Assembly (NCBI RefSeq): GCF_002844555.1 | Contig: NZ_PJNI01000005.1 | Coordinates: 1-64,000, forward strand | Source of the DNA: Brumimicrobium salinarum | GTDB lineage: Bacteria > Bacteroidota > Bacteroidia > Flavobacteriales_D > Crocinitomicaceae | Length of the DNA stretch: 64,000 nucleotides | Direction: 5' to 3' | In this document: positions 30,647 to 33,915 of the stretch, in pieces | How positions within the stretch are numbered: the stretch's first letter is position 1 | Layout of the letters: every line of letters begins with the position of its first letter | Notes under the pieces: generated by a model | The model's input: only the letters and a program-made list of their open reading frames with translations | Databases searched by the model: none | Told to the model about the DNA's origin: nothing | Translations under genes and position numbers: made by a program

Positions 30647-31516
30647 ATGAGACAATTAAAAATTAGTAAGCAAGTTACCAATCGCGAAACAGCGTCGTTG
30701 GATAAATACCTAGTTGAGATTGGTCGGGTTGACTTAATTACTGCGCAAGAGGAAGTAGAATTAGCCCAAAGAATCAAAGCTGGTGACCAACGTGCTTTAG
30801 ATCGTTTGACACGCGCTAACCTCAGGTTTGTTGTTTCTGTTGCCAAACAATATCAAAATCAAGGTTTAACACTTCCTGACTTAATCAATGAAGGAAATCT
30901 TGGTTTAATAAAAGCTGCCAAGAGATTTGACGAAACAAGAGGTTTTAAATTTATTTCTTATGCAGTTTGGTGGATTAGACAATCCATTCTTCAAGCGCTA
31001 GCAGAGCAAGCAAGAGTGGTAAGATTACCACTTAATAAAATTGGTTCAATTGGAAAGGTGAATCGTGCTTTTTCGGAATTAGAGCAAAAGTATGAGCGAC
31101 CACCAAGCAATCAAGAGCTATCAGAATATCTCGACATACCTGTGAAAGACATCAAACAAGCACTTTCATCTAATGGTAGACATATTTCGATGGATGCGCC
31201 ATTAACAGAAGGCGACAGTTCAAGTTCAAATATGTACGATTTATTGGACAATGACAGTTTAGATACACCGGAAACAAGTCTACTACACCAATCTCTTCAA
31301 AAAGAAATTAATCGTTCTTTAAAAACCTTAACCACGAGAGAGGCTGATGTAGTGAAACTATATTATGGATTAGATGGAAATAGGCAAATGAGCCTAGATG
31401 AAATTGGTTATCGTTTCGATTTAACCAGAGAACGCGTGCGTCAAATTAAGGAAAAGGCGGTTAGAAGATTAAGACATACTTCAAGAAGTAAGTTGTTAAA
31501 ATCGTATTTAGGTTAA
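30647..31516 (+). CDS. rpoD: Primary sigma factor RpoD/SigA
   Basis: 289 residues, the short Bacteroidota form without the long N-terminal region 1.1 of E. coli sigma-70. Region 1.2 '[20 protein letters not shown]' near residue 13, region 2 '[18 protein letters not shown]' and '[16 protein letters not shown]' (about 100), region 3, and region 4 '[25 protein letters not shown]' near 248 are all present. It recognises the TTG/TAnnTTTG promoters listed elsewhere. It is a single gene with its own terminator. Confidence 0.95.
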
Positions 31517-31675: not shown

Positions 31676-33407
31676 ATGAGTGATTACATTGTTTCGGCAA
31701 GAAAATACAGACCACAAACCTTTGATACTTTAGTGGGTCAAGGCAATATTGCAACTACCTTAAAAAATGCAATAAAAAATGATCAATTGGCCCAGGCCTT
31801 TTTATTTTGTGGTTCAAGAGGGGTCGGAAAAACCTCAACTGCAAGAATTTTAGCCAAAACAATTAACTGTTCCAACCGAACAGAAAACATTGAAGCTTGT
31901 GGCGAATGTGATTCGTGTCTGTCATTTGATGAAGGACAGTCTTTAAATGTTTACGAACTCGATGCGGCATCGAACAACAGCGTAGACGACATAAGAAACT
32001 TGATAGATCAAGTACGAATAGCACCACAACTTGGAGATTTTAAAGTATATATTATTGACGAGGTTCACATGCTTTCAACAGCAGCCTTCAATGCATTTCT
32101 TAAAACATTAGAAGAGCCTCCAAAACATGCAATTTTTATTTTAGCAACAACTGAGAAGCACAAAATCATTCCCACAATACTTTCTCGCTGTCAGATTTTT
32201 GATTTTAACCGAATACAAGTTGCTGATATCGCAGAGCATTTAAAGAAAATTGCTGTTAACGAAGGTATAGATGCAGAAAGTGAAGGTTTACATCTTATTG
32301 CACAAAAAGCAGATGGTGCTTTAAGAGATGCCCTCTCAATTTTTGATCAAATAGTAAGTTTTGCTGGAAAAACAATAACCTATCAATCGGTTTTAGCAAA
32401 CTTAAACGTACTTGATTACGATTATTTCTTTAGACTTGTTGATTATGCACTTGAAGAAGACATTACCAACAGTTTATTATTATATCATGAAATAGTCAAC
32501 CATGGTTTTGATGGACATCAATTTTTAATAGGTTTATCAGAACACTACAGGGGATTATTGGTTGCGAAAGACCCTAAAACATTGGATCTTCTTGAAGTAG
32601 GAGAAAGTATAAAAAAACGATACAAAGAGCAAGCAGCAACAATTGAGGCAAGGCATATTATGCGTGCGCTAGGCGTGATTAGCACAGCTGATACAAATTA
32701 TAAATCCGCTAAAAACCAAAGGTTACTTGTGGAATTAGTACTCATGCAGTTGTGTTCATTAAAAAATGAGCTTGAAAAAAAAAGCCTTAACTGATCCAGT
32801 ACACATAATCCCATTTAAAGGTCAGAAAAAATCTAAGTCTGAAAGAGATAATAAAAAAAGTGTCACTCCTCAAAAAAAGACAAAGCCAGCAAGTATTACC
32901 TTAAACAAAGAGGCAAAAAAACTAGATGCTCCAACACGAAAACTGAATCAATCCTATTTAGGAATTAACGATCTTATCTCTGAAGCTTCAAAGAAAAAAG
33001 AGAAAGTTCAGCAAAAAGAAGAAAAGGGAAGCCGAGCTACAGATCCGTTTTCTATTGATGAATTAAGAATGAGTTGGAGAAAATTCGCTTTTAAAGCAAA
33101 AGAAGAAGGGATTGGTACACTTTACACTGCAATGATTGCACATGACCCAGTTTTAACAGAGAATTTTACTGTAAACCATACCGTTGACAACGATGTTCAA
33201 TTAGGGTTTATAAAATCCCATGAAACGAATTTAGTAAGTTATTTAAGAAAGGAATTAAACAATTACGCAATTCAATTAACCATAAAAGAAGAAGCATCGG
33301 AAAGTGGAAAATTATATTCAAGTAAAGCAAAATTTGAAGATATGGCCGAACGCAATCCCCATTTAAAAACGCTACGTCAAAAATTCAAACTAGACATTGA
33401 TATTTAA
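31676..33407 (+). CDS. dnaX: DNA polymerase III subunit gamma/tau, split at an A9 run
   Basis: The first 372 codons (31676-32794) form the clamp-loader AAA+ module: 'GSRGVGKTSTARIL' P-loop (about 46-59), four zinc-binding Cys in 'CSNRTENIEACGECDSC', 'IIDEVHM' Walker B, 'LSRCQIF' (SRC) arginine finger. Reading in frame ends at TGA 32792-32794 just after nine A (32775-32783). In the +1 frame the sequence runs on for about 205 residues to 33407: a basic linker (KSKSERDNKK, KKTKPAS) and the folded tail 'IDELRMSWRKFAFKAKEEG', like Bacteroidota tau C-termini. Removing one A gives a 576-residue tau. Two products, gamma (372) and tau (576), are therefore plausible. Confidence 0.85.
32775..32783 (+). 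promoter_or_regulatory. A9 recoding/slippage site in dnaX
   Basis: Nine A between CTTG and GCC. In frame zero the codons are GAA AAA AAA AGC; the tau frame reads AAA AAA AAA GCC. A -1 base slip in RNA (A8) or +2 (A11) restores tau; a -1 ribosomal slip would reach a TAA at once, so the classic E. coli-type -1 translational shift does not fit. Thermus dnaX uses transcriptional slippage at a similar A9. Confidence 0.5.
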
Positions 33408-33564
33408 ATAGTTAATTCATTTCGTAGGCATCAAACTAAAGATAAAAAAATGCATTTTTTACATTCCGAAATCTTTTTTGTAAATAAATCAGCTTTAGAA
33501 TGGTTTAATTCATAAATTATATGTAATATTGCACCCCAATTTCGGAGAAGATAAAATAAAAGTC

Positions 33565-33915
33565 ATGGATTTAATAAAAGAAGTTCAAAACGAATTTTCA
33601 ACAGCAGTAGAAGCCCCAAATTTTGGAGCTGGAGATACCGTTGCTGTTTCATATAAAATTAAGGAAGGCGACAAAGAGCGTATCCAGCAATTTACTGGAG
33701 TTGTTCTTCAACGTCGTGGTACAGGTTCAACAGAAACATTTACTGTTCGTAAGGTATCTGGAGGAATAGGTGTAGAAAGAATTTTCCCTCTTCACACACC
33801 ATTTATCGAAGAGATAAAAGTATTGAAACAAGGTGCAGTAAGAAGAGCACGTATTTTCTACTTCCGTGAAAGAACTGGTAAGTCTGCTCGTATTAGAGAG
33901 AAAAGAAGATTCTAA
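33565..33915 (+). CDS. rplS: 50S ribosomal protein L19
   Basis: 116 residues from ATG 33565 (MDLIKEVQNEF); an in-frame ATG at 33529 would add 12 residues that are not part of the family. 'GDTVAVSYKIKEGDKERIQQFTGVVL' (SH3-like fold, about 19-44), 'RRGTGSTETFTVRK' and a basic tail 'RARIFYFRERTGKSARIREKRR' are characteristic. It sits at the 30S-50S interface. It is a single gene with a clear terminator. Confidence 0.95.
   Translation: MDLIKEVQNEFSTAVEAPNFGAGDTVAVSYKIKEGDKERIQQFTGVVLQRRGTGSTETFTVRKVSGGIGVERIFPLHTPFIEEIKVLKQGAVRRARIFYFRERTGKSARIREKRRF

Follow-up and report, generated by a model that had tools for sequence, protein, structure and literature searches.

The dnaX gene of Brumimicrobium salinarum (31676-33407, plus strand) raises the question of how two clamp-loader proteins, gamma and tau, could be produced from a gene whose reading frame is broken at a run of nine A. 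The window, that is, the whole stretch of 64,000 nucleotides that was analysed, was examined together with dnaX loci from the same genus, the same family and other Bacteroidota.

The frame break in dnaX

Frame 0 (31676-32794, plus strand) consists of 372 codons and encodes the gamma form, which matches the models TIGR02397 (E 1.7e-131 for the gamma part) and NF011531. The A9 run (32775-32783, plus strand) has a G on either side, G-AAAAAAAAA-G, and the TGA that ends frame 0 (32792-32794) is found eight bases past it. Two stops are packed in the segment TTAACTGA (32787-32794, plus strand), where a TAA at 32788-32790 closes the -1 frame and the TGA closes frame 0. The +1 frame continues on the same strand (32784-33407) as a tau-specific tail of 207 codons and a stop, with 71% identity to the tail of the congener G009. 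The initial annotation had described a 372-codon gamma ending just past the A run, a +1-frame tail representing the C-terminus of tau, and a -1 ribosomal route that meets a TAA at once. The ORF and the sequence agree with the first statement, the length of the tail and its NF011531 match with the second, and the position of the TAA with the third.

Across the run, frame 0 reads GAA AAA AAA AGC, so there is no in-frame A_AAA_AAG in the window, and one added A, or a -1 shift, leads immediately to the TAA at 32788-32790. Upstream of the run, a TAA in the tail frame (32760-32762, plus strand), read from the sequence, limits any +1 shift to 32763-32791. The tail frame also includes an ATG (32766-32768, plus strand), the sole ATG near the run among 147 family loci that need a shift. 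The computed products are a gamma of 41.6 kDa and, via A8, a tau of 576 residues and 64.9 kDa. On one side of dnaX there is an ORF (30647-31516) that presumably resembles a primary sigma factor, and the ORF on the other side (33529-33915) resembles what we take to be ribosomal protein L19.

The tail matches positions 424-614 of the 614 of the DnaX model NF011531/PRK14971 in a model search (E 1.9e-21) and, because this is the C-terminal third of the model, it belongs to dnaX. It is under purifying selection, with dN/dS of 0.05-0.13 in pairs with estimable dS, an estimate that is qualitative because most synonymous distances are saturated. A tail that is open by chance or non-coding was ruled out by the DnaX-specific match and the purifying selection. 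The predicted fold of the tail has a mean pLDDT of 77.5 and is of high confidence at about residues 91-170. Comparison of this fold with the PDB gave no match at E 0.001 or below; the best was a DciA-DnaB complex entry (E 0.046), followed by a SirA-DnaA domain I entry that was also above E 0.001. A PDB sequence search with the tail returned two chance-level globin matches and nothing else.

We consider it probable that two clamp-loader proteins are made from dnaX through stuttering of the RNA polymerase on the A run. Faithful transcripts with A9, as well as those with A10 and A12, would end a few codons past the run and yield gamma, and transcripts shrunk to A8 or grown to A11 would join gamma to the tail and yield tau.

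Relatives in the genus and the family

The tail is present in the 10/10 genomes of the genus and never lies in the gamma frame. The tail of all nine congeners is at -1 and follows an A10; that of the window is at +1 and follows an A9. None of the congeners has an uninterrupted dnaX, the condition that the initial annotation had named as contrary to its reading. A tail match was detected in 192/200 family genomes. Among the 150 highest-scoring family loci the tail is off the gamma frame in 149, and the genomic frame encodes the short form in the window and in the 148 loci that carry the tail at -1. Classification by run and tail frame gave A10/-1 in 129 loci, A11/-1 in 16, A12/-1 and A13/-1 in one each, A9/+1 in one (the window), A11 with the tail in frame in one (L150), and no run with the tail at -1 in one (L224, with a longest run of A5). 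Runs of at least nine A are therefore found in 149/150 loci (129 A10, 17 A11, and A9, A12 and A13 one each). The tau-frame class was defined by an open tail of at least 120 codons upon adding or removing one A, a definition that left one A10 family locus unassigned. Of the two features that the initial annotation had proposed to follow in relatives, the frame break is kept in 149/150 family loci and the exact A9 is not, the congeners having A10.

In terms of the proposed slippage, relatives with A10 would make tau from transcripts that gained one A. The window has one A fewer, and the correction therefore flips from the gain of one A to the loss of one (or the gain of two). The window lineage would have lost one A, with the direction of the correction reversed and the design intact; this loss would be harmless, given that each non-tau frame was already closed by a stop.

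An additional 22 lower-scoring family loci comprised one that repeats G053, six with A10 or A11, and 15 without the run. In total, the run is absent and dnaX is split in 16 of 171 distinct family genomes, indicating that other solutions exist. The idea that the run is conserved throughout the family was weakened by these 16/171 genomes, of which 15 came from the lower-scoring loci. The locus L352 (G012) has a TAA after 260 frame-0 gamma codons, far from its A10 junction, and may reflect an assembly error or a pseudogene.

The split dnaX genes without an A run (L342-L350, L353-L355, L357 and L360-L362) belong to the genera g5, g8, g11, g20 and g23, with 9/9 g11 genomes and 4/4 g5 genomes examined. 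Their tail is in the -1 frame and starts at the gamma stop. There is an ATGA overlap in L342, a GTGA in L348 and a TAATG in L355; by eye, the other 13 show an ATC in the tail frame at the stop, as in ATCTTAA, and three of these 13 have AGGAGG 4 nt ahead of the ATC. Possibly, a separate tail protein is made from an AUC start at the latter loci.

Translation of the tail as a separate protein, from the ATG at 32766 or by reinitiation after gamma, could also be conceived for the window. It is very unlikely in our estimation: the window does have an ATG in the tail frame, and in some run-less genera of the family the two ORFs meet or overlap at an ATGA, GTGA or TAATG, but such an ATG occurs in 1/147 family shift loci, the window alone, and no ribosome-binding site was seen by eye ahead of it.

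Length of the run in the window

Being a singleton, the A9 may have arisen by error or by mutation in the strain. A pattern for the A9 junction, which misses junctions bearing another downstream motif, matched 10/240 family genomes, and by contig and position the other nine matches are away from the dnaX junction; by this pattern the window has the sole A9 at a dnaX junction among the 240. A pattern for the usual run matched 174/240 family genomes, an undercount because the A10 congener G007 was missed, and two of the matches (G057 and G167) have one extra A. These two, L150 (G057) and G167:C15:22179-22201, have an A11 that would put tau in the genomic frame, with G167 known as a pattern match only. 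L150 (A11, in frame) and its nearest relative L141 (A10, -1) are 99% identical over gamma, and the extra A of L150 and G167 is either a real switch or an assembly error.

A true genomic run of A10, shortened by one base through a sequencing or assembly error, would place the window with its congeners, and tau would then be obtained through an inserted A or a -1 shift. We regard this as unlikely, although several observations point to it: A10 is present in 9/9 congeners, an A9 junction was found by pattern in no other of the 240 family genomes, G057 and G167 deviate oppositely by one extra A, single-base deviations at the 1-2% level could be errors, and the A10:A9 ratio of the window's genome is narrowly the lowest of ten in the genus. 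That ratio corresponds to 11 exact A10 runs versus 103 exact A9 runs (0.107) and practically matches those of the congeners G001, G003 and G004 (14:128, 21:179 and 14:128, respectively). No A or T run longer than nine exists in 330 kb of this genome, yet there are 11 exact A10 runs genome-wide. Systematic truncation of homopolymers was considered and found unsupported by the A10:A9 counts, which gave no clear sign of it. The comparison of 26 orthologues with G009, small and thus a weak test of quality, showed 0 split in either direction. Five contigs of 218-572 bases suggest a short-read assembly, in which such errors would be rare. Because the congeners have A10, and not A8 or A11, an error of one base in the count would still mean a broken gene in which tau depends on recoding.

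If nine is the true count, the deletion could also be a recent disabling event in a lineage that is losing tau, a scenario to which we give hardly any weight. Although A9 is unique in the family sample and the branch of the window exceeds that of its sister (0.12 vs 0.08 for the tail and 0.045 vs 0.014 for gamma, from pairwise distances), the tail is intact through 207 codons and, by the same branch arithmetic, shows no acceleration compared with gamma. A further point against the loss is that tau should be essential.

Transcriptional slippage as the candidate mechanism

The choice between slippage of the ribosome and of the RNA polymerase at dnaX is difficult to make from sequence. The base after the run is free to vary within the family (G in 72, T in 47 and C in 30 of 149 loci), so the conserved element is not the E. 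coli heptamer A_AAA_AAG. The sequence downstream of the run gave no conserved RNA structure, with mean z values of -0.18 and -0.28 for two stretches at 149 loci, and 60 aligned family loci yielded an empty consensus fold. A tail-frame stop is located within 14 nt upstream of the run in 74/147 family shift loci; between such a stop and the gamma stop shortly past the run, many relatives leave no room for the shift except in the run itself. Transcriptional slippage is favoured because the run is conserved, its phase varies, both directions occur and there is no conserved RNA structure downstream. The argument from phase rests on lineages outside the family, since within it the run starts at codon position 2 in 149/149 loci having the run; a ribosomal site that acts in codon phase would not be expected to vary as the run does outside the family. 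Against the slippage reading, the 60 nt preceding the run have a slightly stronger fold than shuffled sequences (mean z -0.97).

Ribosomal frameshifting would take place by -1 at A_AAA_AAG or A_AAA_AAA in the relatives and by +1 (AAA to AAA before AGC) in the window. It appears quite unlikely to us that this is the mechanism, because the base after the run is free, the run phase varies among lineages, both directions occur and the downstream structure is not conserved, even though many relatives carry the E. coli dnaX heptamer A_AAA_AAG in frame, the A9 of the window would allow +1 re-pairing on AAA and the run phase is constant in the family. In the window a -1 shift meets the TAA and leaves the tail unreached. 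Bacteroidota ribosomes largely mask the anti-Shine-Dalgarno, the stimulator of E. coli dnaX shifting, and this weighs against the ribosomal route as well. The explanation given in the initial annotation, gamma in the genomic frame and tau through slippage at the A run, is still the best reading. The occurrence of both directions in orthologues is, according to PMC3711429, a sign of transcriptional realignment.

Frame switching across Bacteroidota

A gamma match was obtained in 392/392 Bacteroidota genomes. The gamma open frame is at most 430 aa long in at least 48 of the matches listed, the window included; a further short one, G294, begins 14 bases from a contig end and was kept outside the 48. 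All 45 short-gamma phylum loci examined (40 plus five) have the A run. Given that 40/69 phylum loci were chosen for a short gamma frame, the proportions of the phylum classes are biased, and only the presence of a class was used. The named and phylum sets also contain some members of the window's own family. Among 81 uninterrupted dnaX genes (at least 480 codons), 64 have a run of at least eight A, mostly A10, near the gamma/tau junction, and 17 have none. Thus, many lineages retain the run irrespective of the tau frame, be it the genomic one (Thermus type), -1 or +1. Several Bacteroidota loci with an intact dnaX lack the run (longest A3-A4), e.g., L063, L069, L086 and L102-L104, several of them labelled Bacteroidales or Bacteroidaceae; in these the switch was lost or never present.

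The first A of the run falls on codon position 1, 2 or 3 in 21, 66 and 40, respectively, of 127 named and phylum loci having a run of at least eight A and one tau frame. Depending on the lineage, tau needs 0, +1 or -1 A; the -1 A class consists of the window, L097, L271 and L272, and the +1 direction of the tail was observed here in three lineages. On gene trees built by FastTree, which have many weak forks, the minimum number of changes was 19 for the tau frame (17 leaving out the window and L150) and 21 for the run phase. The starred branches alone give 8-9 changes for the two common tau-frame states and at least 3 for the -1 A (+1 tail) class. Each of the two non-tau frames is closed by a stop within five codons in 148/148 family loci and in 82% of the 127 others, compared with about 10% of the random gamma positions used as control. 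L245 has A9 and a split gene, and its near relatives L045, L249, L243 and L247 combine A10 with an intact frame; this is the pattern expected from the loss of a single base in a slippage gene, and it could also be an assembly error.

Outside the family set, A9 was found in 2/60 genes needing an inserted A versus 10/64 genes with tau in frame (Fisher p 0.03, with non-independent rows). The scarcity of A9 in insertion-needing genes suggests that the tau yield in the window may be low.

We give even chances to a more general proposal in which dnaX of Bacteroidota is "frame-free": slippage at A10 would supply all three frames, stops would guard two of them, the genomic frame of tau would be nearly free to drift, and the window would be a recent switch by one base, which a -1 ribosomal mechanism could not survive. 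If the run and the guard stops persist while the frame switches, the genomic reading frame of a gene can be nearly selectively neutral. The window, with one A fewer than its congeners and an intact tail, is a natural experiment on the mechanism. A confirmed A9 together with the production of tau would decide the mechanism for this lineage because a -1 ribosomal shift cannot make tau there, and the decision would argue for the same mechanism in the relatives. In genomes of this kind, tau is probably split or truncated by automated annotation.

Comparison with known dnaX systems

A 2012 review stated that most other bacteria are without kept frameshift signatures in dnaX (PMC3290774), a statement with which the Bacteroidota loci of the present analysis are at odds. 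The initial annotation had set a genomic frame encoding the short form in contrast to E. coli and Thermus. The contrast holds, but the arrangement is neither unique nor new, being present in 9/9 congeners and already published in 2013 as a type of dnaX (PMC3711429).

The E. coli dnaX is the same gene with the same two products, gamma and tau. It has tau in frame and makes gamma by a -1 ribosomal frameshift at A_AAA_AAG with Shine-Dalgarno-like and hairpin stimulators (PMC3711429, PMC1088944/PMC5009743). In contrast, tau is out of frame in the window, and the family has a free base after the run and no conserved hairpin. The dnaX of Thermus thermophilus resembles that of the window in its A9, the nearby stops in both non-tau frames and the two products (PMC1088944, PMC5009743). 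They differ in that the genomic frame of Thermus is tau and its transcriptional slippage is established, whereas in the window the genomic frame is gamma and slippage is proposed from the sequence. In Blochmannia vafer, dnaX has an indel in a homopolymer tract that is possibly corrected by transcriptional slippage (PMC3017870). This indel is located farther downstream, in the region specific to tau, in the reduced genome of an endosymbiont, and it was proposed as a rescued frameshift rather than as a switch between two products.

The closest precedents are the two-ORF dnaX genes that need recoding for tau, of which 17, all with -1 frameshifts and nine with A10, were described by Antonov et al. 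2013 (PMC3711429). The consulted text of that paper names no members of the window's family. Literature searches on dnaX frameshifting and slippage, Bacteroidota included, brought up no earlier description of the +1 direction or of a frame that switched repeatedly. As in the genes of Antonov et al., gamma in the window stops just past a poly-A run, the tail is in another frame and the C-terminus of tau is conserved; transcriptional realignment was suggested for the two-ORF dnaX genes, as proposed here. Those genes require -1, whereas the correction has the opposite sign in the window, L097, L271 and L272. The dnaX of the window is, then, a variant of the two-ORF poly-A dnaX and not a plain member, with +1 in place of the published -1.
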